Assembly (NCBI RefSeq): GCF_020883495.1
Contig: NZ_CP086610.1
Span: forward strand, 2,585,501-2,649,500
Source of the DNA: Shinella zoogloeoides
GTDB lineage: Bacteria; Pseudomonadota; Alphaproteobacteria; Rhizobiales; Rhizobiaceae
Direction: 5' to 3'
DNA length: 64,000 nucleotides
Positions within the stretch are counted from its first letter, which is position 1. Each line of letters begins with the position of its first letter. This document shows, in pieces, positions 23,683 to 41,007 of this stretch. The notes beneath the pieces are model-generated. The model was not told the DNA's origin. It did not search any database and saw nothing but the letters and a program-made list of their open reading frames with translations. A program made the translations under genes and the position numbers.

Positions 23683-23781
23683 AAGAACTCCTTTGCGCAT
23701 GGCATGCGCGCCCTATCGCGGGGCAAGGCCGCAACCGCGCCATCCCCAAATCACACTCGAATTACAATTGCCATTATATAC

Positions 23782-23793
23782 TGACATTAGTCA
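23782..23793. promoter_or_regulatory. Candidate SorC operator TGACATTAGTCA
   Basis: A partly palindromic 12-mer (TGAC-N4-GTCA) lies midway between the divergent aldolase/SDR (100 bp) and SorC regulator (76 bp) genes. Near-identical copies are at 30723-30734 and 30915-30926 in the other control region of the same cluster. Confidence 0.55.
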
Positions 23794-23868
23794 ATACGTT
23801 ACGTCGCATGGTTGATCGAAGCCGCAATTCGTGTCAGTCAATCGCGGAGACTTCACTGGAAACGCTTC

Positions 23869-24881: not shown

Positions 24882-25829
24882 TCAGGCAGCCTTGCGCGGC
24901 GCGCTGTTCATGAAGGCCAGCGTTTCCTCGAACGAGCGAATGCCCGCGTCCGACCCCAGGCCGGTGGCCACAAGGGCCGCGCTCGCCTGCGCGAAATTCA
25001 GTGCGGTGGTCAGGTCCATCTTGTGATGAAGCGCCGTGATATAGCCGGCATCGAACGCGTCGCCGCATCCGGTCGTGTCGACCACCTGGATTTCGAAAGC
25101 CCGCTCGCGCACGACCGAGCCCGAGGCATCCATGAAGCAGACGCCGTCCTCCCCGAGCGTGAAGACGCAGTGCTTCACGCCGCGGTCAAGAAAGAACCGC
25201 CCTGCACTTTCGACATCGCCGGCACCGGAAATCTGCTTGGCCTCCTCGATGGAGGGCATGAAGTAATCGATATACGGGAACAGCGGCTCGATGAGGCCGA
25301 GCGTACCGTCATTGGCGCCCAGCAGATCGAAAGTCGTGATGCGGCCCCGCTCCTTGGCGGCGGCCAGCAGCTTGCGGCTCGGCTCGCCGTCGAGTTTCGC
25401 CAGAAGACCCGTGCCACCGAGATGTACGATGGGGGCTGCAAGCACCGCGTCGAGGTGGTCGGCGGGAACGTCGAAATGGTCGGAGGCTCCACGCGCATGG
25501 AGTGCGGGACGATCGCCGTTGCGGCGGATATTCAAGATGGTCGCCGAGGTCGCCACCCCCTTGAGGCGTTGCATCTGCGCGGTGTCGACGCCGAAACGCT
25601 GTAAGGTGGCCAGAACAAAATCAGCTTTTTCGTCGTCGCCGACGGCGCCGACCGCCAGGCAACTGAGCCCGAGCTTTGCCAGGTCGACGACGGTTCCCCC
25701 TGCCGTGCCGGCAACCGTCAGACGGATCTCGTCGATGAACTCGACATTGCCGCCCTCCGGTATCGCATCGACCGGCCGGCCGAGCACGTCCAGAATGTAA
25801 AGCCCGACGACAGAAACATCATGAGCCAC
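24882..25829 (-). CDS. PfkB-family carbohydrate kinase
   Basis: 315 residues, ribokinase fold. The N-terminal GGTVVDLAKLG pair and the C-terminal DTTGCGDAFDAGYI (a GCGD form of the GAGD anion-hole motif with its catalytic Asp) mark the family. It would phosphorylate the sugar or ketose brought in by the CUT2 transporter encoded immediately upstream (25 bp gap), giving the substrate for the aldolase/SDR. The phosphorylated sugar cannot be named from the sequence. Confidence 0.88.
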   Translation of the reverse strand: MAHDVSVVGLYILDVLGRPVDAIPEGGNVEFIDEIRLTVAGTAGGTVVDLAKLGLSCLAVGAVGDDEKADFVLATLQRFGVDTAQMQRLKGVATSATILNIRRNGDRPALHARGASDHFDVPADHLDAVLAAPIVHLGGTGLLAKLDGEPSRKLLAAAKERGRITTFDLLGANDGTLGLIEPLFPYIDYFMPSIEEAKQISGAGDVESAGRFFLDRGVKHCVFTLGEDGVCFMDASGSVVRERAFEIQVVDTTGCGDAFDAGYITALHHKMDLTTALNFAQASAALVATGLGSDAGIRSFEETLAFMNSAPRKAA

Positions 25830-25854: not shown

Positions 25855-26886
25855 TCACCCGCGGTTGCGCAGCGTGAAGATGGTGCCGGCGATCAGGATG
25901 AACAGGCCGACGATAAAGAGCTGCAACGTGCTGGGAATTCCAACGAAGATCAGAACGTTGCTGACAAGAGTGATGAGGAGCACGCCGAGAAGCGTCCCGA
26001 TCACCGAGCCGGATCCCCCCGTAATACGCGCGCCGCCGAGCACGACGGCTGCGATGATCTCCAGCTCCATACCCGCAAGATCGAAAGGGTTTGCCAGCCG
26101 GTTGCTCGCCACATGGACGACGCCGGCGATACCGGCGAGCAGCCCCGCATAGGCGAAGACAAAGACGCGCACGGTGAATAGCTTGATGCCAAGCCGCTCA
26201 GCGATCTGCGGGTTGCCGCCTGCCGCGAAGATGGCACGGCCCATCAAGGTCCGCTCGAGGATGAACCACGTCACGAACGCGGCGACAGCCAAAACCAGCA
26301 CCGTTGCCGGCAGCGCCGAGGCGACGCCGCTCGGCGAGATATGTGTGTAAAGCGACGCCTTGCCCAGGCCGTCCATCGCGGCTGGAATGTTCATGAATAG
26401 CGCGGTGCCGACGAATGTCAGCAGGAAGCTGCGATAGACATATTGCGTGCCGATCGTCACGATGAGCGAGGGTGCGCTGAGCTTGTGCACCAGAAGGCCA
26501 TTCACCGCGCCGAGCGCGGCGCCGCCGGCAGCCGCGATGACGAGGATGGCCACGAGCGGCATATCCGGCACAACATTAATGACGAGCATCGTCAGCGCAT
26601 ACATGACGAACGCGGCAATGGCGGTGAAGGAAACATCGATGCCGCCGGCTGCGAGAACCACGAGGACGCCCATTGCAAACAACCCGCGCACGACGGAGGC
26701 CCGCAGGATGTCCACCAGATTGCTCATCTGCAGGAAATCGGGGTTGGCGATGATGACGACGAGGCACGTCGCCACCACGAGCAGGAGCGTGAACAATTCC
26801 GGGCGCGCACCCAGAATATCCCACAGCCGCCGACCGAGGCCCCGCTGCTGATCGCTCGCACCGGATACGGAAATCGCGTCGCTCAT
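25855..26886 (-). CDS. CUT2 sugar ABC transporter permease (first of two)
   Basis: 343 residues, RbsC/AraH-type permease with about 9-10 membrane helices. GGIDVSFTAIAAF, the NGLLVHKLSAPSLIVTIGT stretch and the late GGARITGGSGSVIGTLLG are family hallmarks. It pairs with the product of 29658-30644 in what looks like a heteromeric channel. Its first base overlaps the last base of the ATPase gene (26886), giving tight coupling. Confidence 0.92.
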   Translation of the reverse strand: MSDAISVSGASDQQRGLGRRLWDILGARPELFTLLLVVATCLVVIIANPDFLQMSNLVDILRASVVRGLFAMGVLVVLAAGGIDVSFTAIAAFVMYALTMLVINVVPDMPLVAILVIAAAGGAALGAVNGLLVHKLSAPSLIVTIGTQYVYRSFLLTFVGTALFMNIPAAMDGLGKASLYTHISPSGVASALPATVLVLAVAAFVTWFILERTLMGRAIFAAGGNPQIAERLGIKLFTVRVFVFAYAGLLAGIAGVVHVASNRLANPFDLAGMELEIIAAVVLGGARITGGSGSVIGTLLGVLLITLVSNVLIFVGIPSTLQLFIVGLFILIAGTIFTLRNRG

Positions 26887-28454
26887 CAGATGTTTTCCTT
26901 CGTATGTCCGGCCATGGCGCGGTAGATGCTGTCCTCGCTGAGGGACACGGCGCTGTCATCGGAGATGATCCGGCCTTGACGCATGATGAGGATGCGGTCG
27001 CAGTTCTGCAACAATTCGGGCAGGTCGTCGCTGATGATGATGACCGACATGCCACCATCGGCGAGCCGCTGGATGATGCGGAAGATGGTATCCTTCGATC
27101 CAACATCCACACCGACCGTCGGGCCGTGCAAGATCAGAAGCCGCGGATTGATCGTCAGCCAGCGGCCGATGAGAACGCGCTGCTGGTTACCGCCGGAAAG
27201 GGACTGGACCGGCGCGGAGACATCCGGCGCGACGATCTGAAGGTCGCGTACGCTTTCCTCGGCGGTGCGTCGCGCCCTGCTGGCGCTGATGATGCCGAAG
27301 GCATTCTTCAGACGGCCCAGGATCGGGAGGGTGATGTTGTCCTGTATCGGCTTTTCCAGGAACAGACCTTCGGTCAGCCGGTCTTCCGGCACATAACCGA
27401 TGCCGTGACCGATCGCATCGGCCGCCGACTGCGGCGCAATCGCCTTGCCGTCCAGCCGGATTGTACCATGGGAGGCGGGGGAGACCCCCGCCAGAGCGAG
27501 TGCGAGCTCGTTCCGGCCGGAATCGAGCAGGCCCGTAATACCGAGAATTTCGCCGCGGCGAACATCGAAGCTCACATCCTTGAAGACCCCGCCCTTGGAA
27601 AGCCCCTCGACCTTAAGCAGCACATCACCCGGTTTCGGATTCGTGCGGTAACGCGTTTCACTGATTTCGCGTCCCGTCATCCAATGGCTGAACTCGGCCT
27701 TGCTGTGCGTGGCGACGTCGAGCTCCGTCACCTTCACGCCATCGCGCATGATGACGGCCCGCCCGCCGATCTGCTTGCACTCGTCAAGCTTGTGCGTGAC
27801 GAAGAGCACGGCGACGCCACGCTCCTGAAGGCGCGCGACGACCTTGATCAGGTTCTCGACTTCCTGCCGGGTAAGCGAGGTCGTCGGCTCATCCATGATG
27901 ACGAGCCGCGCATCGGACGCGATGGCGCGCGCGATGGCGACAAGCTGGCGGGTGGCAAGCGGAAGCGTATCCGTGCGACGGGTCAGGAAGCCCCGGTCCG
28001 TCGGCAGATGAACCTCCGCGAGCGCCCGGCGCGCCGTAGCGTGCAGCGCCACGAGATCAAGGCGCCGCGCAAGGCGTCCCGAGGACGCCACAAGCTGCTC
28101 CGTAAAGGCGACGTTTTCGGCGACGGAGAGATTGGGCAACAGGGAGAGGTCCTGATAGACCGTCTCGATGCCCGCGCCCAGAGCGCCAATGGCGCCGAGA
28201 TCCCCGGCAACCACGCCGGTCGGCTGGCCGTCTATCAGGACCTCCCCCTCGTCGGCTGTCTGCGCTCCCGAAAGAATCTTGATCAGCGTGCTCTTGCCGC
28301 AGCCGTTCTCTCCCATCAGGTGGTAGATCTTGCCGGCTTCGATGATCAGGCTGACCTCCTTGAGGGCGCGTACGCCGCCAAAGGACTTCCTGACGTTCCT
28401 GATCTCGAGGAAGGGCGGTTTTTCGGCCGGTGCTGATGGCGTGACGGCATTCAT
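26886..28454 (-). CDS. CUT2 sugar ABC transporter ATP-binding protein
   Basis: 522 residues with two ABC domains, as in RbsA. The first has Walker A GENGCGKST and Walker B VIMDEPTTSL. The second has the usual degenerate Walker A (GLLDSGRNE) and an intact LSGGNQQRVLIGRW signature, but its Walker B reads LLILHGPT, with His-Gly where Asp-Glu is expected, so that site is probably not hydrolytic. The ATG at 28454 follows AGGAT; a 20-codon upstream extension lies over the hairpin region and is rejected. Confidence 0.92.
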   Translation of the reverse strand: MNAVTPSAPAEKPPFLEIRNVRKSFGGVRALKEVSLIIEAGKIYHLMGENGCGKSTLIKILSGAQTADEGEVLIDGQPTGVVAGDLGAIGALGAGIETVYQDLSLLPNLSVAENVAFTEQLVASSGRLARRLDLVALHATARRALAEVHLPTDRGFLTRRTDTLPLATRQLVAIARAIASDARLVIMDEPTTSLTRQEVENLIKVVARLQERGVAVLFVTHKLDECKQIGGRAVIMRDGVKVTELDVATHSKAEFSHWMTGREISETRYRTNPKPGDVLLKVEGLSKGGVFKDVSFDVRRGEILGITGLLDSGRNELALALAGVSPASHGTIRLDGKAIAPQSAADAIGHGIGYVPEDRLTEGLFLEKPIQDNITLPILGRLKNAFGIISASRARRTAEESVRDLQIVAPDVSAPVQSLSGGNQQRVLIGRWLTINPRLLILHGPTVGVDVGSKDTIFRIIQRLADGGMSVIIISDDLPELLQNCDRILIMRQGRIISDDSAVSLSEDSIYRAMAGHTKENI

Positions 28455-28498
28455 CGAGAAATCCTGAACGGCTTTGACACTGGAAGGCGTGGACAGAC

Positions 28499-28528
28499 GG
28501 GCGCGCCGGCACACAGGCCGCCGCGCCC
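28499..28528 (-). other. Hairpin between sugar-binding protein and ATPase genes
   Basis: GGGCGCG (28499-28505) pairs with CGCGCCC (28522-28528), and inner CGGC (28507-28510) with GCCG (28517-28520), one mismatch between. It starts 10 nt after the binding-protein stop and has no T tract. Confidence 0.45.
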
Positions 28529-28538
28529 GCAGACGATC

Positions 28539-29537
28539 TTAGAACGGATAGTTCTTGTAGTTGGACTTATCGGCATCAACCCAGGCCTGGCCCTGGATGA
28601 TGATGCCCTTGCCGGGGCCCTTGGTGACCGTCATCTTGTTGTAGCCGGCCACGCCGAGATCCATGCCGTCCTTGATTTCCTCGCCCTTCAGAACCAGGTC
28701 GGCGACCTTGTTCATGACATAGCCGGCATCCTTCGGATCCCAGAAGAAGATCTGATCGACAGCACCGGTTTCGAGATACGGACCGGTGTCCTTCGGCAGG
28801 CCGAGACCGTAGACGCAGGTCTTGTCCTGCAGGCCGGCTTCCTCGACGGCACGGCCGATGCCGATGACGTCGATGGCGGACGAACCCTGGAAGCCCTTGA
28901 TGTCCGGATACTTGCGCAGGATTTCCTTCGCCTTTTCATAGGCGCGATTGGCGTCGTTGAAGGATTCGTTCTTCTCGGCAACCAGCTCCATGTCCGGGTA
29001 CTGCTTGGCATTCTCCGCGCCGGCATCGACCCACTGGTTGTGCGTGAGGCTGCCGAGCGAGCCGACGAAGCTCGACCACTTGCCGGATTTGCCCATGCAT
29101 TCGGCAAGCTTTTCATTGATGCGCGCGCCGAAAGCCTTGTTGTCGAAGGCCTCGATGTCGACGTCGGTGTTCACGAGGCTGTCGCCTTCATGGGTGATGA
29201 CCTTGATGCCGCGCTGGGAGGCACGGCGCAGAACGCCTTCAAGCGCCGACGGATCCATCGGAACGACGGCGATCGCCGAAACGTTCTTGGCGACCAGGTC
29301 CTCGATAATGCGGGTCTGCTGTGCGGCGTCGGCCTTCGCCGGGCCGATCTGGCTGGCATCGACGCCCGCATTGTCCTTGCCATAGGCATCGACGCCCTCG
29401 TTCATGCGGATGAACCAGTTTTCACCGGTCACCTTCACCACCGTCACGATGGACGGCTTGTCTTCAGCATGCGCCGCGCCGATTGCCATGAGGCCTGCCA
29501 GAACGGTGCCCGCTGCGAGTTTCGAAATCATGCTCAT
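28539..29537 (-). CDS. CUT2 sugar ABC transporter substrate-binding protein
   Basis: 332 residues with a signal peptide (about 1-24, cut near AHA-EDK). The mature part is a periplasmic-binding-protein type I sugar-binding fold resembling autoinducer-2/rhamnose binders: TVVKVTGENWFIRMNEG near the start, PMDPSALEGVLRRASQRGIKV and the GFQGSSAIDVIGIGRAVEEAG hinge segment (about 216-236). The ligand is unknown; members with this layout bind rhamnose, AI-2 or pentitols. GGAGGAGAC precedes the ATG. Confidence 0.9.
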   Translation of the reverse strand: MSMISKLAAGTVLAGLMAIGAAHAEDKPSIVTVVKVTGENWFIRMNEGVDAYGKDNAGVDASQIGPAKADAAQQTRIIEDLVAKNVSAIAVVPMDPSALEGVLRRASQRGIKVITHEGDSLVNTDVDIEAFDNKAFGARINEKLAECMGKSGKWSSFVGSLGSLTHNQWVDAGAENAKQYPDMELVAEKNESFNDANRAYEKAKEILRKYPDIKGFQGSSAIDVIGIGRAVEEAGLQDKTCVYGLGLPKDTGPYLETGAVDQIFFWDPKDAGYVMNKVADLVLKGEEIKDGMDLGVAGYNKMTVTKGPGKGIIIQGQAWVDADKSNYKNYPF

Positions 29538-29657: not shown

Positions 29658-30644
29658 CTAGCGTCCCGGCTTGAGCCAGATGCCGAGATTGATGCGTGCC
29701 GATGCGAGAAGCATGAGCAGCAGCAACCCCCAGGCCAGATCCCGGAAAAAGTTCGAGATGTTCATGAAGTTGAACAGGCTGGAGAGAATTTGCAGGGCGG
29801 TCGACGCCAGCAGCACGCAAATGACCTTGCCGTGACCGCCTTCGGGCCTCACGCCGCCGAGAACAGCGATCAGGATGGCGATCAATACATAGGAGCTGCC
29901 GTAGTCCCATTTCACCGACGACGTGCGCGCAGCGATAATGATGCCGGCGACCGAAGCCAGCACGCCGCAGATCGTGTAGGTGGCGAGCAGCATGCGCCGC
30001 TCATTGATGCCGCCATAGCGCGCCGCTTTCGCATTGCTGCCGAGCAGCATGAGCTGCACGCCGAAACGAGTATAGGCGAGGCTGAAGGCAAGGGCCGCAG
30101 CAACGACCAGAAACAGCGCGAAACAAAGCGGGACACCAAAGACTGGCAAATTGCCGAAGTCATCGAGCGGCTCGATATAGCCCATGCCGACGGCCGAGCC
30201 GTTGGTGAGATAGATTGCAAGCCCCGTGAACAGAAGCTGCGTACCCAGCGTGGCGATAAGCGGGGTCAGGCGCGCATACGCGATTATCAAGCCATTGAGA
30301 AAACCACCGGCAAGCCCGATCACAAGCGCAAGCCCGGCGAAAGTCCAGGAAAAGAGCAGCGGGTCGTCGGCCACCGGCACAAGCGTCTTGGCGACACCGA
30401 ACGCCACGATCCCGGCAAGATTGGCAAGCGCGATGCCGGAGAGATCGATACCACCGTTTCCGGAGATCATTGCCAGCATTACACCAAGCGCAAGAAGGCC
30501 AAGTTCGGGAACCTGCGCCGCCATCGACTGCAGATTATAGCTGTCGAGGAAGCCGCGCCCGGCCAGGATGGCACCCGCAATCAGGGCAAGACCATTGATG
30601 GCTGCCAGAAAAAGTGTCTGCCGATCCAGTCGCAAATTCACCAT
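29658..30644 (-). CDS. CUT2 sugar ABC transporter permease (second of two)
   Basis: 328 residues, RbsC-type, about 9 membrane helices, with GNGGIDLSGIALANLAG, NGLIIAYARLTPLIATLGT and ILIAVLGGVRPEGG. It is the first gene of the minus-strand transporter operon, 120 bp ahead of the binding-protein gene. The ATG at 30644 has a perfect GGAGGATCG site; a longer reading to 30728 would cross the operator at 30723. Confidence 0.92.
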   Translation of the reverse strand: MVNLRLDRQTLFLAAINGLALIAGAILAGRGFLDSYNLQSMAAQVPELGLLALGVMLAMISGNGGIDLSGIALANLAGIVAFGVAKTLVPVADDPLLFSWTFAGLALVIGLAGGFLNGLIIAYARLTPLIATLGTQLLFTGLAIYLTNGSAVGMGYIEPLDDFGNLPVFGVPLCFALFLVVAAALAFSLAYTRFGVQLMLLGSNAKAARYGGINERRMLLATYTICGVLASVAGIIIAARTSSVKWDYGSSYVLIAILIAVLGGVRPEGGHGKVICVLLASTALQILSSLFNFMNISNFFRDLAWGLLLLMLLASARINLGIWLKPGR

Positions 30645-30722
30645 CGATCCTCCTCCATGACCGTCCCGCCCGACTTGCAACACCACCAGGGCGTTCCTCG
30701 TGCTTGGGCGGCCACCACGATA

Positions 30723-30734
30723 TGACATTTGTCA
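30723..30734. promoter_or_regulatory. Candidate SorC operator TGACATTTGTCA (transporter side)
   Basis: A perfect dyad TGACA-TT-TGTCA, 79 bp upstream of the first permease start. It matches 23782-23793 in 11 of 12 positions. Confidence 0.6.
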
Positions 30735-30914
30735 GAGACTGTTAGCGCTTGTCAATAGAGCCGACAACACCGCCACCGAATATCCTCCGAGACCATCCAG
30801 AAAGGCTGGAAAACAAGCCTTTCCGGAAGAAGGCGCCCCTCATGCCTTTCTCACCACAAAACGTCGACAATTACATATGACAACTCAATTCCATCATATG
30901 TCACATTCTAATGT

Positions 30915-30926
30915 TGACATTTGTCT
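30915..30926. promoter_or_regulatory. Candidate SorC operator TGACATTTGTCT overlapping a -35-like TTGACA
   Basis: Second copy of the 11-mer TGACATTTGTC in this region, 278 bp before dhaK. The base before it makes TTGACA (30914-30919), a consensus -35 hexamer, so a bound regulator would block that promoter. A weak -10 (GTTATT) follows at 17 bp. Confidence 0.5.
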
Positions 30927-31203
30927 AACACTTTATGTTATTTGTAAACCTGAAATCAGAAAGTTTCGCCAGGCGCCAACGGAGGACACAGGTCGCCATG
31001 TCGATCGAGGACAATCCCACACGGCCGTTTCGGCGCGCTAGCCGCACCACACCATGCCAACCCGTCCGGCGACGCCCGGCGGGCGTCCATCACGGAATTC
31101 ACCGGTGGCGGGCATGAAAAGAGAATGCGCCGCGCCATCGGGCGCGCGTTCAAGGGTCGCAGATATTCGAGTTTCACTGGCTCGCAAAATTCAAGGAGTT
31201 CCC

Positions 31204-32196
31204 ATGCAGCGTTTCATCAACGATCCTGATCTGGTGGTGGAGGATACCGTCAAAGGCTTCGTCAAGGCGCATGCCGACATTGTACGCCTTGCGGAAAACC
31301 CGCGCGTCGTCGTCGCCAAGGATGCCCCCTTTGCCGGCAAGGTCGGCGTGGTGACTGGCGGCGGCTCCGGCCATGAACCGGCCTTCATCGGCTACACCGG
31401 CAAGAACATGCTGGATGCCGTCGCCATCGGCGAACTCTTCTCCTCTCCGACCGCGAAAAGCTTCCACGACGCCATCCGCGAGGCCAATGGCGGCAAGGGC
31501 GTCGTCGTGCTCTATGGCAACTATGCCGGCGACAACATGAACGTGAAGATGGCCACGAAGCTCGCTGCCAAGGACGGGATCGAGGTCGCGACCGTGGTCG
31601 CCAATGACGACGTCTGCTCCGCCCCGCCGCAGGAGCGCGAAAAGCGCCGCGGCGTCGCCGGCGAGATCTTCATGTGGAAGATGGGCGGCGCCAAGGCGGC
31701 AACCGGCGCAAGCCTCGAAGAAGTCCGCGCCACCGCGCAGAAGGCGATAGACAATTGCCGTTCGATCGGCGTCGGCCTCGGTCCCTGCACGCTGCCGGCC
31801 GTCGGCCATCCGAATTTCCAGATCGAGCCGGGAACGATGGAGGTCGGCATCGGCCATCACGGCGAGCCAGGCGTGCGCGTCGAAAAGCTGAAGACGGCCG
31901 AAGAGGTCGCCAGGGACATGGTGAAGATCGTGCTCGACGATCACAACCTGCCCGAGGGCGCCGAGGTCGCCGTGCTCGTCTCGGGCCTGGGCGCGACGCC
32001 GCTCAACGAACTCTACATCCTCAACGACACGATCGAGAGCGAGATTTCGGCCCGTGGCCTGAAAATCCGCAAGACCTGGATCGGCAACTATTTCACTTCG
32101 CTGGAAATGGTCGGCGCCACGTTGACTGTCATGGCGCTCGACGACGAACTGAAGACGCTGCTCGAGGTCGAGACGCGTTGCACGATCATTCTGTAA
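31204..32196 (+). CDS. dhaK: Dihydroxyacetone kinase-type subunit DhaK
   Basis: 330 residues, the full DhaK substrate-binding subunit. GGGSGHEPAF carries His57 (substrate-positioning) and IGHHGEPG carries His219, equivalent to the E. coli histidine that forms a covalent hemiaminal with dihydroxyacetone. It works with DhaL, which holds the nucleotide. Related split or fused kinases phosphorylate erythrulose or other short ketoses, so dihydroxyacetone is only the default substrate. An AAGGAG site precedes the ATG. dhaL follows after 13 bp. No DhaM phosphotransferase subunit is present, so ATP may be the direct donor or DhaM lies elsewhere. Confidence 0.93.
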   Translation: MQRFINDPDLVVEDTVKGFVKAHADIVRLAENPRVVVAKDAPFAGKVGVVTGGGSGHEPAFIGYTGKNMLDAVAIGELFSSPTAKSFHDAIREANGGKGVVVLYGNYAGDNMNVKMATKLAAKDGIEVATVVANDDVCSAPPQEREKRRGVAGEIFMWKMGGAKAATGASLEEVRATAQKAIDNCRSIGVGLGPCTLPAVGHPNFQIEPGTMEVGIGHHGEPGVRVEKLKTAEEVARDMVKIVLDDHNLPEGAEVAVLVSGLGATPLNELYILNDTIESEISARGLKIRKTWIGNYFTSLEMVGATLTVMALDDELKTLLEVETRCTIIL

Positions 32197-32209: not shown

Positions 32210-32851
32210 ATGCAGACTTTCGACAATGCTTCCTCTGGCGCCATCGTGCTGTCGATGGCCGAGCGGATCGTCGAGAACCGCGCCTATCTCAGCGAAATCG
32301 ACGGCAAGATCGGCGACGGCGACCATGGTGTGAACATGGCGAAGGGTTTCGCCATGGCCGCCGAGCGCCTGAAAGGCAAGAACGCCTCGCTCGCCCAGTC
32401 CCTCGACACGCTCGGCACCGTGCTGATGACGGAGATCGGCGGCTCGATGGGGCCGCTCTACGGCGTCATGTTCACGGAATTCGCCGAAACCATCGAAGGC
32501 GTCGAGAAGATCGACGCGCCAGCCTACAGCAGGATGCTGCATGCCGGCCTGGCGGGCATCCAATCGATCGGTTCGGCCAAGGTGGGCGACAAGACGCTGC
32601 TCGACACGCTCGTTCCCGCTGTGGAGGCCTTCGACACGGCCACGGCGACGGAAAAGCCCTTCGGCGATGCACTGGAAGCCCTCACCGCAGCGGCGGAAAC
32701 CGGCCGCGACTCGACCATAAATCTCGTGGCGAAAATCGGCCGTGCCAGCCGCCTTGGCGAACGCTCGCTCGGCGTGCTCGATGCGGGGGCCACCTCCTGC
32801 GCCATCATCCTCAAGGAATTGTCCGACGGCGCGCGCGCCCGACTTGCCTGA
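32210..32851 (+). CDS. dhaL: Dihydroxyacetone kinase-type subunit DhaL
   Basis: 213 residues, all-helical DhaL ADP/ATP-binding barrel. The Mg-nucleotide motif GDGDHG is at about 35-40 and the late loop IGRASRLGERSLGVLDAGA is typical. It pairs with the DhaK encoded 13 bp upstream to transfer phosphate to a short-chain ketose. A second DhaL of similar length lies at 35134. Confidence 0.93.
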   Translation: MQTFDNASSGAIVLSMAERIVENRAYLSEIDGKIGDGDHGVNMAKGFAMAAERLKGKNASLAQSLDTLGTVLMTEIGGSMGPLYGVMFTEFAETIEGVEKIDAPAYSRMLHAGLAGIQSIGSAKVGDKTLLDTLVPAVEAFDTATATEKPFGDALEALTAAAETGRDSTINLVAKIGRASRLGERSLGVLDAGATSCAIILKELSDGARARLA

Positions 32852-32987
32852 GACGGCGTAAAAGTTCCTCCCAGGATGCGCGGCCTGTCCTTCGTGAGAG
32901 GTCGCGCACCGCTTTTTTGCCAAGGCATGTTGCAAACCGGCGGCGTTGCTTTCATGGTCGCCGCCTGATGGAGGACCGGCGAGACCG

Positions 32988-35105
32988 ATGGCATCGAAGA
33001 CTTCCGCACCGCGCAAGGGCGGCCCTGGCCGGGGCAACGGGCCGGAAGGTATCGACATGATCCCGCTGCGCTACGGCGACGATCCCTATGTCTGGGCCTG
33101 CTGGCTCTATTATGAAGACGGCATGACGCAGGGCGAGATCGCCGAGGCGATGGGCGTCTCTCGCGCCACCGTCAACAGCTATCTCGCCGACGCCCGCGAG
33201 AAGGGCATCGTCAACGTCTCGATCGAACCCGCCCGCCTCGCCTCGCTCACCATCGCGCAGGAACTCAAGCGCCATTTCGGCCTCGCCGACTGTCTCGTCG
33301 TGCCGAACAGCGACGATTCCCGCCCGCTGATCGGTCGCCTGGGGGCCGCCGGCGCACAGGCGCTGTCCAGGATCATCAAGTCCGGCGACACGCTCGCCGT
33401 GGCCTGGGGGCGCACGATCCTCTCCGTCGGCGAGCACCTCGAAATGGGCGCGTTACAGGACGTCACCGTCGTGCAGGCAACCGGCGGCACCACCGCGAGC
33501 TTCGCCTATACGCCGGAGTTGACAGCCGCCGCCGTCGCCCGGGCGATTTCCGCGCGCTGCGTCAACATCACCGCACCCGCCATCGTCGCCTCCGCCCAGA
33601 TGCACGACATGCTGCTGGCCGAACCGTTGATCCGCGAACAGTTCGACACGCTCGCCCGCGCCAACCGCATCGTCTTCGGCATCTCGTCGCTGCGCCCCAA
33701 TTCGACGATCCATACCAGCGGCTTCTTCGAATCCGTGCCGCTGCAGCACTATCTCGCCAAGGGCGCCGCCGGCGTCCTCGCCGGCCGCTTCATCGATGAG
33801 CGGGGCCGTCCCGTCGCCGGCCCCCTCGACGACCGCACCATCGGCATCTCGCTCGAAATGCTGCGCGGCATCGGCACGCGCGTCGCCGTGGCCGGCGGCT
33901 TCGACAAGGTCCCGGCCCTGCTTGCGGCGCTGCGCGGCGGCTATGCCAATATCCTGGTGACGGATGCGGCGACGGGCGCCGGTATTCTGCGCGCCGATGG
34001 CGTCACCAGCCTCGACGGCAAGCCCTCACAGCGCCAGAGAAGTATGCCGGTCGCCAAGAGCTACCGCACCCATGTCAAAAAGTTCCTCAACAACCCCAAC
34101 GACGTGGTCGAGGAGATGCTGGACGGCCTGATCGCCGCGCACAGGCCCTATCTCCAGCCGATCGGCGCTTCGCGCCGCGCGCTCGTCGCACGCGACGGCC
34201 CACGCCCCGGCAAGGTCGGCCTCGTCATCGGCGGCGGCACGGGGCACGAACCCTGCTTCGTCGGCTATGTCGGCAAGGGGCTTGCGGATGCAGTAGCGCT
34301 TGGCAACATCTTCTCCTCTCCGCCACCGGACCCGATTGTCAAATGCGCCTTGGCCGCGTCGGGAGGCGCAGGCGTGCTCTTTGTCTACGGCAACTATGCC
34401 GGCGACGTGATGAATTTCGAAATGGCCGCCGAGCTGGCCGAGGAACAGGGCATCCCGATCCGCACCGTGCTGACGACGGACGACATCGCCTCCTCACCCG
34501 TCGAGGACAAGGAGGGGCGTCGCGGCGTTGCCGGCAATTTCTTCGTCTTCAAGGTGGCAGGCGCGGCCTGCGACATGGGCATGACGCTCGATGAGTGCGA
34601 GGCCGTTACGCGCAAGGCGAACGACCGCACCTATACCGTCGGCGTCGCGCTCGAATCCTGCTCCATGCCTCAAACGCGGCGGCATAACTTCGAGATCGGT
34701 CCCGACGACATGGAATTCGGCATGGGGATCCATGGCGAGCCCGGCGTGCTACGCGAGCGCGTACGCACCGCCGACGAGATCGTCGACACGGTCATGGACA
34801 ACATCTTCAAGGAGATGAAGGCCGAGCCCGGCGACAGGGTGGCGGTCTTGGTCAACTCCTTCGGCGCAACGCCGCTGATGGAGCTCTACATCCTCTATCG
34901 AAGAGTGGAGCAGCGGCTTGCTGCCAAGAATATCGCAATCGAGGCGAGCTGGGTGGGGCACTACTGCACATCGCTCGATATGGTGGGCGCTTCCATTTCG
35001 ATTCTGCATCTCGAGCGCCAGTTGACCGAACTGCTGCACCATCCGTGCCGGACGGCAATCCTGACCATCGGTGCGTCTGACGTGAACGGAGCGGCAAAAG
35101 GCTGA
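32988..35105 (+). CDS. SorC-family regulator fused to dihydroxyacetone kinase subunit DhaK
   Basis: One uninterrupted frame of 705 residues. Residues ~30-350 are a complete SorC regulator: HTH at about 44-71 (MTQGEIAEAMGVSRATVNSY), then a sugar-phosphate sensor with VAWGRTILSVGEHL and QATGGTTAS. Residues ~355-700 are a complete DhaK with GGGTGHEP (His420) and GMGIHGEPG (His582). Both halves keep their key residues, so neither looks decayed. An internal ATG at 34044 (residue 353) with a weak AGAGA site could also yield DhaK alone. A later start (33057) or an earlier one (32946) is possible; 32988 is a compromise. dhaL follows after 28 bp. Confidence 0.9.
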   Translation: MASKTSAPRKGGPGRGNGPEGIDMIPLRYGDDPYVWACWLYYEDGMTQGEIAEAMGVSRATVNSYLADAREKGIVNVSIEPARLASLTIAQELKRHFGLADCLVVPNSDDSRPLIGRLGAAGAQALSRIIKSGDTLAVAWGRTILSVGEHLEMGALQDVTVVQATGGTTASFAYTPELTAAAVARAISARCVNITAPAIVASAQMHDMLLAEPLIREQFDTLARANRIVFGISSLRPNSTIHTSGFFESVPLQHYLAKGAAGVLAGRFIDERGRPVAGPLDDRTIGISLEMLRGIGTRVAVAGGFDKVPALLAALRGGYANILVTDAATGAGILRADGVTSLDGKPSQRQRSMPVAKSYRTHVKKFLNNPNDVVEEMLDGLIAAHRPYLQPIGASRRALVARDGPRPGKVGLVIGGGTGHEPCFVGYVGKGLADAVALGNIFSSPPPDPIVKCALAASGGAGVLFVYGNYAGDVMNFEMAAELAEEQGIPIRTVLTTDDIASSPVEDKEGRRGVAGNFFVFKVAGAACDMGMTLDECEAVTRKANDRTYTVGVALESCSMPQTRRHNFEIGPDDMEFGMGIHGEPGVLRERVRTADEIVDTVMDNIFKEMKAEPGDRVAVLVNSFGATPLMELYILYRRVEQRLAAKNIAIEASWVGHYCTSLDMVGASISILHLERQLTELLHHPCRTAILTIGASDVNGAAKG

Positions 35106-35133
35106 GGCGGCCGGCGCCAAAGGGGAGAAAGAC

Positions 35134-35772
35134 ATGTCGGAAACTGCGGCACGCACTCTCGCCCGGATGTTCGAACGGATGTCCGAGGTGATCGAAGCGG
35201 AAAAGGACCATCTTTCCGAACTCGACGGCGCCGTCGGCGACGGAGACCACGGCATTACCATGTCGATCGGCTTCAAGGCAGTGACATCGGCCTTGGCCGG
35301 ACTCGATCTTGACGAGGCAAGCCTTTCCGACGTGATGTCGACGGCCGCCAGCGGCTTCCTCGACGCGGTCGGCGCCTCCACCGGCCCGCTTTACGCAACG
35401 GGCTTCCGCCGTGCAGCGCGGGTGCTTACGGGCCGCGACCGGCTCGACCTTGCCGCCTGCCGCGACATGCTGACCGCAATCGCCGAAGGCATACGCGAGC
35501 GCGGCAAGGCGCAACGCGGCGACAAGACCATGCTCGACGTCTGGCTACCGGCCGCCGAGGCCGCAACAGCGGCAGTGGCCCACAATCTTTCGAAGCAGGA
35601 TTTCTGGAAGGCCGTGGAGACCGCCGCCGAAAATGGCGCTGCGGCGACCGCCACAATGATCGCAACCAAGGGCCGCGCCGCCCGCCTGCGCGAACGCTCG
35701 CTCGGCCACCCCGACCCCGGCGCAGCATCCGCGGCTCTGCTGATCAAAACGATCGCAAGCCTTCAGTTCTAA
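35134..35772 (+). CDS. dhaL: Dihydroxyacetone kinase-type subunit DhaL (second copy)
   Basis: 212 residues with GDGDHGITMSIGF (Mg-nucleotide site) at about 35-47 and the RGDKTMLDVWLPA and RLRERSLGHPDPGA segments of DhaL. It should partner the DhaK half of the SorC-DhaK fusion just upstream. It is clearly diverged from the first DhaL, suggesting the two kinases differ in substrate rather than being a recent duplication. Confidence 0.92.
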   Translation: MSETAARTLARMFERMSEVIEAEKDHLSELDGAVGDGDHGITMSIGFKAVTSALAGLDLDEASLSDVMSTAASGFLDAVGASTGPLYATGFRRAARVLTGRDRLDLAACRDMLTAIAEGIRERGKAQRGDKTMLDVWLPAAEAATAAVAHNLSKQDFWKAVETAAENGAAATATMIATKGRAARLRERSLGHPDPGAASAALLIKTIASLQF

Positions 35773-36205: not shown

Positions 36206-37270
36206 TCAGTTCAGGCGCTGCTCCGTTTCCGCATCGAAGACATGGATGGCGGAGGGCTGGACGCGAAGGGAAATCTCCTCGCCCGCCTTGATGCCGGCCG
36301 CCGCCGGCAGGGCCGCGACGAGGCGCTGGCCGCCGACCGACGCCGTGACGACCAGTTCCGGCCCCGTCAGTTCCGCCACCTCGCAGCGCGCGTCGAGAGG
36401 CACACCATCGCCCGACGGGCCGAGCGCTTCGGGGCGGATACCGAGGACGAGCTTCAGCCCCTCGGCCATGGTTTCCAGTCCCGGCACGGCGAGCGCGATG
36501 CCGGTTCCCTCGATGACGGCCTTGCCGGCCTCCACGCGCGCCGCCAGAAGGTTCATCGGCGGCGCGCCGACGAAGGTCGCGACATAGAGCGTCGCCGGCC
36601 GATTGTAGATGTTTTCCGGCGTGTCGAGCTGCTCGATGCGGCCGCCGCGCATGACGGCGATGCGGGTGGCGAGCGTCATCGCCTCGATCTGGTCGTGCGT
36701 GACATAGACGACGGTCGTCCTCGTCATCTGGTGCAGGCGCTTCAACTCGGTGCGCATTTCCATGCGCAGCTTGGCGTCGAGGTTGGACAGCGGCTCGTCG
36801 AAGAGGAAGATTTTCGGATTGCGCACCAGCGCCCGGCCGATGGCGACGCGCTGGCGCTGGCCGCCGGAAAGCTGGCCGGGCTTGCGCTCTAACAGGTTCT
36901 CGATCTGCAGGAGCTTCGCCGTCTCGCGCACGGCGCGGTCGCGCTCGGCCTTGTCGACCTTGCGCATTTCGAGGCCGAAACCGATGTTCCGGTGGACCGT
37001 GAGGTTGGGATAGAGCGCGTAGGACTGGAAGACCATGGCGATATCCCGGTCCTTGGGATGCACGCCGACGATGGAGCGCCCGTCGATGCGGATATCGCCG
37101 CTCGTCGGCTCGCCGAGGCCGGCGATGATGTTGAGCAGGGTGGACTTGCCGCAGCCCGACGCGCCGAGCAGCACGAGGAATTCGCCGCTTTCCAGCGCGA
37201 TGTCGATGCCCTTCAGGGTCTCGACGGCGCCGTAGTTCTTGCGGATGGCTTCGATGGTCAGCGTGCTCAT
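36206..37270 (-). CDS. CUT1 sugar ABC transporter ATP-binding protein (UgpC/MalK family)
   Basis: 354 residues. ABC domain with Walker A GASGCGKST, signature LSGGQRQRVAIGRAL, Walker B IFLFDEPLSNLDA and switch His in VTHDQIEA, followed by a C-terminal TOBE/MalK regulatory part (about 235-354). It energises the CUT1 permeases encoded at 39210-40939. The ATG at 37270 overlaps the kinase stop by four bases (ATGA). A longer in-frame reading to 37510 lies over the kinase gene and is not used. Confidence 0.93.
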   Translation of the reverse strand: MSTLTIEAIRKNYGAVETLKGIDIALESGEFLVLLGASGCGKSTLLNIIAGLGEPTSGDIRIDGRSIVGVHPKDRDIAMVFQSYALYPNLTVHRNIGFGLEMRKVDKAERDRAVRETAKLLQIENLLERKPGQLSGGQRQRVAIGRALVRNPKIFLFDEPLSNLDAKLRMEMRTELKRLHQMTRTTVVYVTHDQIEAMTLATRIAVMRGGRIEQLDTPENIYNRPATLYVATFVGAPPMNLLAARVEAGKAVIEGTGIALAVPGLETMAEGLKLVLGIRPEALGPSGDGVPLDARCEVAELTGPELVVTASVGGQRLVAALPAAAGIKAGEEISLRVQPSAIHVFDAETEQRLN

Positions 37271-38190
37271 GCCGGGATTTCCTGCGGGATGGGGGCGTAG
37301 CGTCTCGGATGGGTGGAGATGGCGAGGGAAGCGACGGCCGTGCCGGCGGCAAGGCTGGCCGCAAGCCCCCTGCCCTCGGCATAGGCGGCGAGGAAGGCGG
37401 CGTTGAAGACGTCGCCCGCGCCGATGGTGTCGACGACCGCGACGGATGGAGCCTCGGCCCGGCAAAATGCGCCGTCCGCATCGATGGCGATCGCGCCCTT
37501 CGGCCCGCATTTCACGACGACGATGGCCTCTTTGGGCATGTCCTGCCGCAGGAGGCGGCCGGCCTCTTCAGGGTCCGGGACGCCGGCAAGGTTCGTTGTT
37601 TCGACCTCGTTGAACAGGGCTATACGGCAGCGCGACAGCCAGCCCTTCGCCGCCGCCCGGTTCTCCTCCGTCCAGCCGTGCAGCGGCCAGCCGGTGTCGA
37701 GTGCGACGGCAATGCCGTGCCGTTCCGCCCAGTCGAAGAAGCCGTCATATTCCGCCACCAGCCCATCGGTGAGGAAGGAGCCGCAGAGGAGCGCGATGCC
37801 GCCCTGAAGGCGCGGGCCGTCAAGCACGGCGAAGACGTCCTCCAGACTGAAGAGCGGCAGGTGGCCGCGCGTGGTGAAGAAGGTGCGCTCGCCATCGGGA
37901 TGGGTGATGCCGACGGAAAGGGTCGTGCTGTCGCCATGCACCGGCCAGCGCCGGGCGCGCTCGCCAAAACTTTCGGCAAGCCACGCGCCAAAACGGTCGC
38001 TGCCGATGCTGGCGGCGATCTCGAAGGGCGTGCCGAGCGCCATCCAGGCGAGCGCCGCATTGCCGGCGGAACCGCCGACGCGCAATTCGTCATGGTCGAC
38101 GATGATCTCGGTGCCGGGCTGCGGCCAGGGCGCGGCCGGGCCCATGATCAGGTCGACATTGACGTTTCCGATGACGGCAAGCGGTCTCAC
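37267..38190 (-). CDS. PfkB-family carbohydrate kinase (fructosamine-kinase-like context)
   Basis: 307 residues, ribokinase fold, with the N-terminal GNVNVDLIMG and GGSAGNAALAW and the C-terminal DTIGAGDVFNAAFLA (GAGD anion hole and catalytic Asp). It abuts the SIS-domain gene with no gap and overlaps the ATPase gene by four bases. A PfkB kinase plus SIS isomerase plus CUT1 transporter is the make-up of frl operons, in which FrlD phosphorylates a fructosyl-amino acid. An ordinary sugar kinase is equally possible from the sequence alone. Confidence 0.87.
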   Translation of the reverse strand: MRPLAVIGNVNVDLIMGPAAPWPQPGTEIIVDHDELRVGGSAGNAALAWMALGTPFEIAASIGSDRFGAWLAESFGERARRWPVHGDSTTLSVGITHPDGERTFFTTRGHLPLFSLEDVFAVLDGPRLQGGIALLCGSFLTDGLVAEYDGFFDWAERHGIAVALDTGWPLHGWTEENRAAAKGWLSRCRIALFNEVETTNLAGVPDPEEAGRLLRQDMPKEAIVVVKCGPKGAIAIDADGAFCRAEAPSVAVVDTIGAGDVFNAAFLAAYAEGRGLAASLAAGTAVASLAISTHPRRYAPIPQEIPA

Positions 38191-39207
38191 TCATTCGCTC
38201 CGGGTAATCTTGGTCGAACGCACCGGCGTTCCGGCATCAGGGACGCGGGCGGCGGCGAAGGCGATCATCAGGCGCTGCGCGGTCGGCAGCATGGAGAAGA
38301 CGGCGGCAAGGCCCGTCGATGGCGGGAAGACGATGGTCGCCGCGCCTTCGACGGGCGGGCGGCCGGAGGCGTCGAAGACGACCAGTTTCGCGCCGGCTTC
38401 CACCACGGAGACAGCCATGGCCGTCACGAGGTCGGCCGTCGCATCGTCGCTGCGGAAGAGCACGATGCCCACCTCCGGCGACAGCATCTCCATCGGCCCG
38501 TGGCGAAGCTGCCCGCCTTCCAGCGAGAAGCACGGCACGCGCGAAAGCTCCGTAAAGCCGAGCGCTATGGCTTCGGCGAGGCCCTGCAGGCGACGGCCGG
38601 ACGTCACCACAGAGCGGACAGTCGAAAGCGCGGCGAGCGCCGCCTCGATGGACGGCTCACTGAGGTTTTCCAGCGCGGCAACGGCGGAGGCAACATCCTC
38701 GCCCAGCGCGCCGAGGATCGCGAGATGAAGGGCGAAGCTTACCGTCAGGCTGCGCGTTGCGGCAAAGGCCTGTTCGGTGCCGCCGTGGCCGACGAGGCAG
38801 GGGGCGGTGCGGGCAAGGAAAGAGCCGCCCTCCAGCGTGAAGCCGAAGGTTTCGGCATTGCCGCCGGTTTCCTCGAACCAGCGCAGGACCTCGGCGCTTT
38901 CGCCGGATTGCGAGGTGATGAAGACGGTGCGGCCATCGAGCGAGAGCGGCGCACCGAGCTGTTCGGAGAGCGGCAGGGCGACGGCATCGATGCCGAGGGC
39001 GCGGTAGAGCGGCTCGACGGCGCGGCCGACGGCGTGCGAGCCGCCCATGCCGAGGAGGATGAGCCTCCCCGTGCGCTTCAGGCTGGCGGCGGCCCTTGCC
39101 GCCATGGCCGCATTGCTGCGGAAGGAGGCCAGTGCATCGGCGTGCTGGCGGGCCATTTCCCGGTCGATGGCCTGAAGCCCGGCCGGGCGTGTCGCGTTCG
39201 TTGTCAT
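38191..39207 (-). CDS. SIS-domain sugar isomerase/deglycase (GlmS/FrlB-like)
   Basis: 338 residues with two SIS domains (about 35-170 and 195-320). The first has the phosphosugar-binding ITSQSGESAEVL loop, the second the GGQLRHGPMEML motif comparable to the E-x-x-HGP of GlmS, NagB-II and FrlB. The likely reaction is isomerisation or deglycation of a 6-phosphorylated aminosugar or fructosamine. The ATG at 39207 has AAAGGA at good spacing and lies two bases after the permease stop (TGACCATG); the ATG two codons upstream would leave no spacing. Confidence 0.85.
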   Translation of the reverse strand: MTTNATRPAGLQAIDREMARQHADALASFRSNAAMAARAAASLKRTGRLILLGMGGSHAVGRAVEPLYRALGIDAVALPLSEQLGAPLSLDGRTVFITSQSGESAEVLRWFEETGGNAETFGFTLEGGSFLARTAPCLVGHGGTEQAFAATRSLTVSFALHLAILGALGEDVASAVAALENLSEPSIEAALAALSTVRSVVTSGRRLQGLAEAIALGFTELSRVPCFSLEGGQLRHGPMEMLSPEVGIVLFRSDDATADLVTAMAVSVVEAGAKLVVFDASGRPPVEGAATIVFPPSTGLAAVFSMLPTAQRLMIAFAAARVPDAGTPVRSTKITRSE

Positions 39208-39209
39208 GG

Positions 39210-40055
39210 TCATCCTTTCACACCGCCGCTGGTGAGGCCCGAGATCAGGGCCCGTTGCATGAGAAGGCCGACCAGCACCGGCGGCAGCGCGGCAAGCACG
39301 CCGGCCGTGGCGATCAGCCCGTAGTCGGAGACGCGTCCGCCCGCGAGATCGGCGATGGCGACGGTGAGCGTGCGCGCGCGCTGGTCGGAGGTGAAGAGCA
39401 GCGCATAGAAGAATTCGTCCCAGCCGAGCAGGAAGGCGAAGAGCGCCGAGGTCGCGACGATGGGCATGGCGAGCGGCAGGGTGACGATGCGCAGCGTCGC
39501 GAAAAGGCTTGCCCCGTCGATCATCGCGGCCTGCTCGATCTCGCGCGGGATGCCGTCGAAGCCGGACTTCATCAGCCATGTCGTGAAGGGCGCGAGGATG
39601 CTCAGATAGACGAGCGCGAGGCCGAAGACGGAATTGAGCAGGCCGAGCGCGGCGAGCAGCATATAGAGCGGCACGGCGAGCGCGACCGGCGGCAGCATGT
39701 AGGTGGCGATGACCAGCGACAGCGACCAGCCGACCGAGGGCGTGCGCGACACCGCCCAGCCGGCGGGAATGGCAAGCGCGATGGCCGCGAGCGTCGCCAT
39801 GCCGGCCACAAGGATGCTGTTGACCAGCGAGGCGACGAAGGTGGCCCCGGCGCTGTTGGGCACCGTCGAGAGCAGCATCGCATAGCGGGAGAAATCCACC
39901 GTGCTCGGCCACCAGCGCAGCGGCCGCGCCACGAGGTCGGCGGCCGGCGAGATGCTCATCACGAAGAGCCAGAGGATCGGCGCGAGGATGACGGCGGCGA
40001 GCAGGAGCGCGGCGGCGTGTATGAGGATCGAGGCAAGGAGGCTGCGGCGTTCCAT
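39210..40055 (-). CDS. CUT1 sugar ABC transporter permease (MalG type)
   Basis: 281 residues with about six membrane helices. The EAA loop EIEQAAMIDGASLFATLRIVTLPLAMP (roughly 170-196) is canonical for the MalG-like subunit. It forms a heterodimer with the MalF-like permease, whose gene ends at the base where this one starts (40055). It would carry the sugar bound by the SBP at 41008. Confidence 0.93.
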   Translation of the reverse strand: MERRSLLASILIHAAALLLAAVILAPILWLFVMSISPAADLVARPLRWWPSTVDFSRYAMLLSTVPNSAGATFVASLVNSILVAGMATLAAIALAIPAGWAVSRTPSVGWSLSLVIATYMLPPVALAVPLYMLLAALGLLNSVFGLALVYLSILAPFTTWLMKSGFDGIPREIEQAAMIDGASLFATLRIVTLPLAMPIVATSALFAFLLGWDEFFYALLFTSDQRARTLTVAIADLAGGRVSDYGLIATAGVLAALPPVLVGLLMQRALISGLTSGGVKG

Positions 40056-40939
40056 CAGGCGGCACTCCCTGCGGCGCGGCGCACCAGCATGCCGTAGCCG
40101 ATCGCCAGCACCGTCACGATGAGCGTGACGACGAGGGCGAGCGAGGCCCCGGAGCCGGCGCGCTGGAAGGAGAACGCCTCCTGATAGACGAGGATGGAGA
40201 GGGTGCGCGTGGAATTGGCCGGCCCGCCGCGCGTCATGACCCAGATGATGTCGAACACCTTGAAGGCCTCGATGGTGCGCAGCACCAGCGCCACCATCAG
40301 CGGCCCGGCAAGATAAGGCAGGATGACGAAGCGGAAGCGGGCGAAGGGACCCGCGCCATCGACCAGCGAGGCGGCGGTGATATCGCGCGGCACCGCCTGC
40401 AGCGCAGCGAGCGCGATGAGGGCGACGAGCGGAAAATTCTTCCAGCAGTCGGCGACAATCAGCGCCGTCATGGCGGTGGCCGGCTCGCCGAGCCAGGACC
40501 GGTAGGCGTCGAGCAGGCCGATCTGCGTCAGCGCCGAATTCAGCGCGCCGTATTCCGGGTTATAAATGAGACGCCACAGGGTCGCGTTGACCACCGTCGG
40601 CAGCGCCCAGGGCAGGATGAGCAGCGCGCGCAGCACCGTGCGGCCGTGGAACTGCTGGTTCAAAAGCAGGGCGGCAAGCACGCCGAGCACCATTTCCGCC
40701 GTTACCGAGGCGACGGCGAACCAAGTGGTGGCGTAGAGCGCCCGCAGGAAATTGCTGCTCGCCAGCATCTTCGCGTAATTGTCGAAGCCGACGAAATTGC
40801 CGCCGAGGCCCACCAGCTTGGCATCGGTGAAGGAGAGCCGCACGGTATCGACCATCGGCCAGCCGATGACGGCGACCATGATCACCAGAAGCGGCAGCAT
40901 GAGTAGCCATGCCCGGGTGGTCATCCAGGTGCTGGACAT
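40055..40939 (-). CDS. CUT1 sugar ABC transporter permease (MalF/UgpA type)
   Basis: 294 residues with about six membrane helices, including LLPLLVIMVAVIGWPMVDTV at the N-terminus and the EAA loop around ITAASLVDGAGPFARFRFVILPYLAGP. It follows the binding-protein gene after 68 bp containing a stable hairpin. Stop and start overlap by one base with the MalG-type gene. Confidence 0.93.
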   Translation of the reverse strand: MSSTWMTTRAWLLMLPLLVIMVAVIGWPMVDTVRLSFTDAKLVGLGGNFVGFDNYAKMLASSNFLRALYATTWFAVASVTAEMVLGVLAALLLNQQFHGRTVLRALLILPWALPTVVNATLWRLIYNPEYGALNSALTQIGLLDAYRSWLGEPATAMTALIVADCWKNFPLVALIALAALQAVPRDITAASLVDGAGPFARFRFVILPYLAGPLMVALVLRTIEAFKVFDIIWVMTRGGPANSTRTLSILVYQEAFSFQRAGSGASLALVVTLIVTVLAIGYGMLVRRAAGSAA

Positions 40940-40973
40940 AGCGTCCTCTTGTCTGTTTTCGGGAAGGAGAGTG

Positions 40974-40997
40974 TGCGGGCGACCGAAGCCGCCCGCA
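40974..40997 (-). other. Hairpin between sugar-binding protein and permease genes
   Basis: TGCGGGCG (40974-40981) with CGCCCGCA (40990-40997), 8-bp perfect stem, 8-nt loop, 10 nt after the binding-protein stop. No T tract. Confidence 0.5.
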
Positions 40998-41007
40998 AGT
41001 CAGGATA

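Follow-up and report, generated by a model that had tools for sequence, protein, structure and literature searches.

A SorC-type regulator fused to a dihydroxyacetone kinase subunit in Shinella zoogloeoides and related bacteria, with a putative operator and a probable ketotetrose context

Our analysis reveals that a regulator of the SorC family and a DhaK kinase subunit form one protein in Shinella zoogloeoides, and that this fusion is widespread in soil and plant-associated bacteria, where it apparently controls the use of small, probably four-carbon, sugars. The gene lies in a 64-kb stretch of contig NZ_CP086610.1, which was analysed as a whole and is called the window here. Its frame is open from 32946 to 35105 and encodes 705 amino acids from the ATG at 32988; the first-pass annotation was right in reading it as a frame of about 705 codons that unites a complete SorC with a complete DhaK. 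Relatives such as L045, L010, L011 and L013, among others, open at that methionine or two codons earlier, and the homologue of Shinella sp. H4-D48, annotated as one protein, has its NCBI start at the same ATG. The architecture is already present in databases under the pipeline-assigned NCBI name 'bifunctional sugar-binding transcriptional regulator/dihydroxyacetone kinase subunit DhaK' (e.g. WP_241949702.1), with the same operon place in Shinella sp. H4-D48; new here are the operator, the constancy of the DhaL partner, the ketotetrose context and an unfused relative. A search of the open-access literature, with most subscription journals outside its reach and some weak queries, found no functional study of a SorC-DhaK fusion.

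Both halves lie in one frame in 67 of the 71 fetched loci that were scanned, a count that illustrates the stability of the fusion and not that every relative is fused, given that the loci were retrieved with the fusion as query. The loci set aside are three with contig-edge ends (L040, L044, L049) and one (L105) in which the front of SorC is lost. After removal of 8 duplicates from the fused loci, 59 distinct sequences and that of the window make up 60 full-length sequences, none of which has a stop codon in the linker; L142, L143 and L144 are unfused relatives. In samples drawn by the search tool, which overlap, full-length fusions, counted by rows, occur in 22 of 199 genomes of the family, in 14 of 297 genomes of the order, where a fifteenth (G299) has the genes unfused, and in 5 of 398 genomes of the phylum, all five of which belong to the class. 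Among matching plasmid records, 102 of 459 span at least 80% of the fusion query, and pSymB of S. meliloti 1021 carries a match over residues 23-694 (82%).

A domain search detects three regions of the protein above Pfam cut-offs: Sugar-bind (PF04198) at residues 86-334 with 199 bits against a cut-off of 27, Dak1 (PF02733) at residues 380-690 with 388 bits against 31.4, and a helix-turn-helix (HTH) at about residues 40-75 through Sigma70_r4_2, HTH_24 and Sigma70_r4. An N-terminal HTH followed by a sugar-binding domain of about 250 residues places the fusion in the SorC family, DeoR subfamily, as defined in PMC11229326. The C-terminal half, a Dak1 domain with catalytic His, Asp and His, belongs to the DhaK subunits of DAK-type kinases. 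Its alignment with E. coli DhaK pairs His56, Asp109, His218, Ser80 and Lys104 with His420, Asp473, His582, Ser444 and Gly468, respectively; the first three are the catalytic residues, and both histidines earlier singled out as key are retained. With 379.4 bits in the NCBIfam DhaK equivalog model TIGR02363 (cut-off 406.25), the fusion ranks as a relative rather than an E. coli-type DhaK equivalog; in the DhaQ model TIGR02362 it scores 199.2 bits (cut-off 413.25).

Judged by dN/dS against seven relatives, both halves of the fusion are under purifying selection, with the domain values given in Table 1 and 0.122-0.338 in the linker; the last 12 residues yield 0.67-2.83 in five computable cases and are too short to judge. 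Among the 60 sequences, which were picked as full-length hits so that invariance holds for fusions only, His420, Asp473 and His582 as well as the SorC residues Trp140, Gly141, Arg142, Arg236, Gly303, Gly304 and Lys307 are invariant, position 444 is occupied by Ser in 53 sequences and by Ala in the other 7, and the position of E. coli Lys104 is Gly in all. The free dhaK1 of the window carries the same Gly (YGNYAGD), hence the replacement of Lys104 by itself is no sign of lost catalysis. The AlphaFold2 model of the fusion (mean pLDDT 82.6, pTM 0.74) has a low-confidence linker and displays no interface between the domains. Foldseek matches listed for the SorC half include DeoR-DNA, SorC, LsrR and CggR, and those listed for the DhaK half include E. 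coli DhaK, by itself or in complex with DhaL or DhaR, both DhaK and DhaQ of L. lactis, and a C. freundii kinase; among the best 50 rows none covers both halves (query TM-score at most 0.45). The effector-binding Lys of DeoR aligns with Thr165 of the fusion, a position held by Thr in 59 of the 60 sequences and by Ala in one, and a DeoR-like covalent Lys in the sensor was rejected on this ground.

The genes in the window are arranged as dhaK1-dhaL1-fusion-dhaL2, with a sugar ABC transporter and a PfkB-type kinase encoded divergently (Table 1). The earlier reading had correctly placed a dhaL 28 bp past the stop of the fusion; the upstream dhaK1-dhaL1 pair, the divergent transporter operon and the putative operator were absent from it. 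Two further loci were noticed nearby: a bifunctional class II aldolase/short-chain dehydrogenase gene (21631-23700, minus strand; above two NCBIfam cut-offs) beside a second SorC gene, and a separate, convergent sugar locus with a maltose-type ABC transporter, a PfkB kinase and a SIS-domain protein (36206-42246, minus strand).

Table 1. Features of the fusion gene and its surroundings; positions are those of the window
Feature	Position	Strand	Basis
SorC-DhaK fusion gene, 705 aa	32988..35105	+	Single frame also in 59 other distinct sequences
HTH DNA-binding domain, residues 31-80	33078..33227	+	Pfam; dN/dS 0.011-0.058; pLDDT about 50-70
SorC effector-binding domain, residues 81-335	33228..33992	+	PF04198; dN/dS 0.042-0.125; Foldseek DeoR, LsrR, SorC, CggR
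Linker, variable, probably flexible, residues 336-362	33993..34073	+	No stop in 60 sequences; pLDDT <50 at 343-358
DhaK domain with His420, Asp473, His582, residues 363-693	34074..35066	+	PF02733; E. coli DhaK alignment; dN/dS 0.050-0.071
dhaL2, nucleotide-binding kinase subunit	35134..35772	+	PF02734 (DAK2); TIGR02365, 184.9 bits (cut-off 138.3)
dhaK1, separate DhaK	31204..32196	+	PF02733; start at MQRF set from relatives' 330-aa frames
dhaL1	32210..32851	+	PF02734; TIGR02365, 174.6 bits (cut-off 138.3)
ABC sugar permease	29658..30644	-	PF02653; start set by us
Sugar-binding protein, RhaS/LsrB-like but below their cut-offs	28539..29537	-	Profile searches
ABC sugar transporter ATPase	26886..28514	-	PF00005
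Second ABC permease	25855..26886	-	Position and clustering with relatives' transporter genes only
PfkB-type sugar kinase	24882..25829	-	Below every curated family cut-off
Putative operator palindrome GTTGACATTTGTCTAA between the divergent operons	30913..30928		EM search; score 22.6, best in the 64-kb window
Place of possible second half-operator (+21 bp)	30934..30949		Position recurs in relatives; window score -0.5, too weak to call

All 69 loci examined have a dhaL2-type gene next to the fusion, in 55 of them on its downstream and in 14 on its upstream side. In L098 and L099 this gene stands behind a separate DhaK as well, with which the fusion may share it. DhaL2 itself exceeds the TIGR02365 cut-off. 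The genome has no match to DhaM (TIGR02364) at E 0.001; ATP rather than a PTS chain is therefore the likely phosphate donor, and a PTS-type donor, as in DhaKLM systems, was rejected.

Neighbourhoods were counted in 46 loci of 18 kb with complete fusions. A homologue of the DthD/GolD-type (threitol-type) dehydrogenase lies near 36 of them, that of L010 scoring 402.8 against a cut-off of 286, and one of the erythrulose-phosphate isomerase DerI near 7, that of L019 scoring 256 against 240. In the Shinella genome a DerI that passes its cut-off is encoded on another contig, and no DthD passes. No DthD homologue above 45% was found in the stretch examined around L024, L027, L036, L039, L044 and L050, the six relatives that share the window's type of binding protein. 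One operon type would thus import a polyol and oxidise it, the other would import the ketose. The relatives' neighbour genes suggest that the substrate is a ketose with four carbons and not dihydroxyacetone, and these are probably ketotetrose operons; we slightly favour this substrate class for the fusion operons in general, and put it at just under an even chance for the present strain. According to a 2025 paper (PMC12780249), no tetrose-specific transporters or kinases have been reported; the fusion loci offer candidates for tetrulose kinases. A dhaK1 homologue is present in 41 of the 46 loci and absent from five (L023, L026, L029, L042, L047); the first three of these carry another free DhaK, and L042 has no DhaKL set within the 18-kb stretch other than the fusion and its DhaL.

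The published operators of SorC-family regulators are two-part and bound by tetramers, that of B. subtilis DeoR comprising a palindrome and a second half that overlaps the promoter (PMC11229326). A palindromic EM search in 28 regions, which we chose from 41 extracted, returned the motif nTTGACA-nn-TGTCAAn with a site scoring above 8 in 25 of the 28 regions and a total score of 563.7, compared to 279.8, 280.6 and 285.9 in three single-base shuffles; exact-dyad counting, carried out before, had displayed weak sharing (at most 4 loci; shuffles 1-2). A matrix built from 23 sites (the window and 22 relatives) reaches at least 17 in all 23 training loci and in 17 of the 24 held-out ones, together 40 of 47, and in none of 30 control loci with a free DhaK (peak 15.5), figures that are flattered by held-out loci being kin of the training loci and controls coming from other lineages. 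The held-out loci without a site of at least 17 are L023, L026, L029, L030, L032, L039 and L042. A second copy of the palindrome (score at least 8) lies 20-23 bp away in 25 of 41 sites and in none of the 41 in each of seven control offset windows, and the mean score at +21 lies 6.5 standard deviations above other offsets. Most best sites precede the transporter, dhaK1 or fusion gene, those of L007, L020 and L035 lying inside over-extended ORF calls; in S. meliloti a site scoring 24.0 lies about 190 bp before dhaK1, and where the fusion is placed elsewhere, as in L027, L133, L145, L100 and L101, a site can stand immediately in front of it.

Within the window, scores above 11 are found at 30913 (22.6), 23780 (15.5) and 30721 (13.5), and the only perfect match to the pattern in the Shinella genome is 30914-30927. 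With at most one mismatch the pattern is not enriched genome-wide (7 strand-wise matches versus 9 for the reversed control), and it is the position of the perfect match, not the genome count, that would matter for an operator. TTGACA is also a -35 consensus, and part of the conservation of the palindrome may for this reason reflect a promoter. A promoter scan of 30600-31230 gave one weak minus-strand match against 0.3 expected and was not used as evidence. The hit at 30721-30736 is a weaker operator-like palindrome near the start of the divergent permease gene, and the one at 23780-23795 lies about 75 bp before the second SorC regulator (23869-24849, plus strand), which is 44% identical to the fused SorC domain. 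A further palindrome, TTGACGGCTGTCAA (10.4; L153, contig 3, 112681), some 100 bp upstream of the genome's third Dak1 gene, may be due to chance.

We propose that the fusion would act as a SorC/DeoR-subfamily repressor whose C-terminal domain is the subunit that binds the ketose in an ATP-dependent DAK-type kinase. As a tetramer it would bind the two half-operators of the putative operator and, when bound, would block its own divergent promoter; a ketose phosphate, probably an erythrulose phosphate, would enter the SorC pocket and the repressor would let go. This effector would be made by the adjacent DhaKL kinases, including the fusion's own DhaK domain with DhaL2. From sequence comparison, we consider autoregulation through DNA binding at the putative operator very probable, and a working kinase of DhaK domain and DhaL2 probable; that the effector is a phosphorylated product has a small balance in its favour. 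Repressor, working kinase subunit and phosphorylated effector would all hold together with somewhat less than an even chance, and we suggest with equal reserve that one chain couples the two halves beyond co-expression. Dihydroxyacetone phosphate frees CggR, a repressor of the SorC family, from its DNA (PMC11229326), which makes it plausible by analogy that kinase occupancy or product may alter DNA binding of the fusion. A sensor that feeds itself, in which the DhaK domain and DhaL2 phosphorylate the ketose and the product is passed to the SorC pocket within the operator-bound tetramer, is rather unlikely; if true, the switch would read kinase turnover (ketose and ATP) and not the bulk sugar-phosphate pool. 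With dhaK1-dhaL1 present in 41 of 46 loci, the pathway may well do without the fused kinase.

Among known systems, B. subtilis DeoR, E. coli LsrR and K. pneumoniae SorC resemble the fusion in HTH, sugar-phosphate-binding domain and the plan of its putative operator, but are without a kinase domain, and DeoR has Lys where the fusion has Thr165. E. coli DhaK shares the fold and the catalytic His/Asp/His, whereas the fusion differs by the attached SorC, the change of Lys104 to Gly and a score below the DhaK equivalog cut-off. In L. lactis DhaQ-DhaS and E. coli DhaK/DhaL-DhaR a DhaK-like protein acts on a transcription factor, which is TetR-like in DhaS and of the enhancer-binding type in DhaR; kinase-like protein and regulator are separate there and the regulator families are others, in contrast to the single chain with SorC. 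NadR and the archaeal RbkR are regulator-kinase trigger enzymes that combine a DNA-binding domain and a small-molecule kinase in one protein, but with other folds and substrates. If the halves of the fusion are coupled, an enzyme that makes a metabolic signal would be joined to the protein that reads this signal, in a lineage that includes S. meliloti 1021. The predicted operator, the likely sugar class, the constant DhaL partner and the unfused relative render the benefit of such a regulator-enzyme fusion directly testable.

The joining of the two halves can have other explanations. On the one hand, repressor and kinase subunit may work independently, their union only fixing stoichiometry and co-expression. 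The variable linker of low model confidence agrees with this, as do L142 with SorC and DhaK as adjacent separate genes and L105, which kept DhaK without the SorC part; however, the halves are joined in 60 of 60 full-length sequences across a wide group (a biased figure, fetched with the fusion as query), though as operon neighbours they would be co-expressed anyway, and we give this explanation a real chance, roughly one in three. Alternatively, the DhaK domain might be mainly a sensor whose binding of ketose or DhaL sets the SorC domain, with minor catalysis, comparable to DhaQ of L. lactis or to the action of E. coli DhaK on DhaR. DhaQ and the DhaR-DhaK complexes among the listed Foldseek matches, the Gly in place of Lys104 and the dhaK1-dhaL1 pair, which could provide the kinase activity in 41 of 46 loci, are consistent with a sensor. 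Yet the DhaQ model is missed by a wide score (199.2 against 413.25), the catalytic residues do not vary in the alignment, every one of the 69 loci has a dhaL2-type gene adjoining the fusion, a dhaK1 homologue is missing from five 18-kb loci (though L023, L026 and L029 have another free DhaK), and the Gly shared with free dhaK1 is no proof of lost catalysis, all of which leaves a mainly sensory DhaK domain improbable. Finally, a sequencing error hiding a stop near 34000-34040 is already refuted for the frame by the 59 other distinct sequences with the same single frame and stop-free linkers, and a second protein from an internal start, suggested by the ATG at 34044 in the window, is hardly credible either, with NCBI annotating one protein and that ATG confined to the window (GTG in L004 and L005; in other relatives ATG, GTG or TTG at scattered positions of the linker, or none). 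Of the first-pass reading, the fusion is supported as real, widespread and conserved, and the free DhaK is not supported, its start codon not being conserved.

As to the origin of the preferred repressor-kinase fusion, the sequences suggest that a neighbouring regulator and kinase subunit were likely joined once. In the SorC tree, built with 32 of the 73 fused rows and without two contig-edge rows, the fusions group together to the exclusion of L142 and the window's second SorC (89/96); a larger SorC tree, in which these two contig-edge rows are counted as free, needs three changes. In the DhaK tree, 13 free DhaKs stand beside 6 fusions (92/85), and the best tree lacks a single clade of all fusions. 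Several independent fusions were considered, but such a clade is compatible with the data (p-AU 0.155; 33 of 72 fused rows used). G390 and G280 (L143, L144) hold a distant SorC (26%) directly before an unfused gene, itself a DhaK-DhaL fusion, and likewise possess a true SorC-DhaK fusion. In L105 (G122), SorC is cut to about its last 70 residues and linker and DhaK remain, for which later loss of the SorC part is the likeliest explanation. In L142 (G299), a stop codon closes SorC (43% to the window), with two further in-frame stops behind it, and DhaK (62%) begins at an ATG of its own that is preceded by GGGAGG. The operator-like site at 1416-1431 (19.7) precedes the SorC similarity, which begins at 1501.
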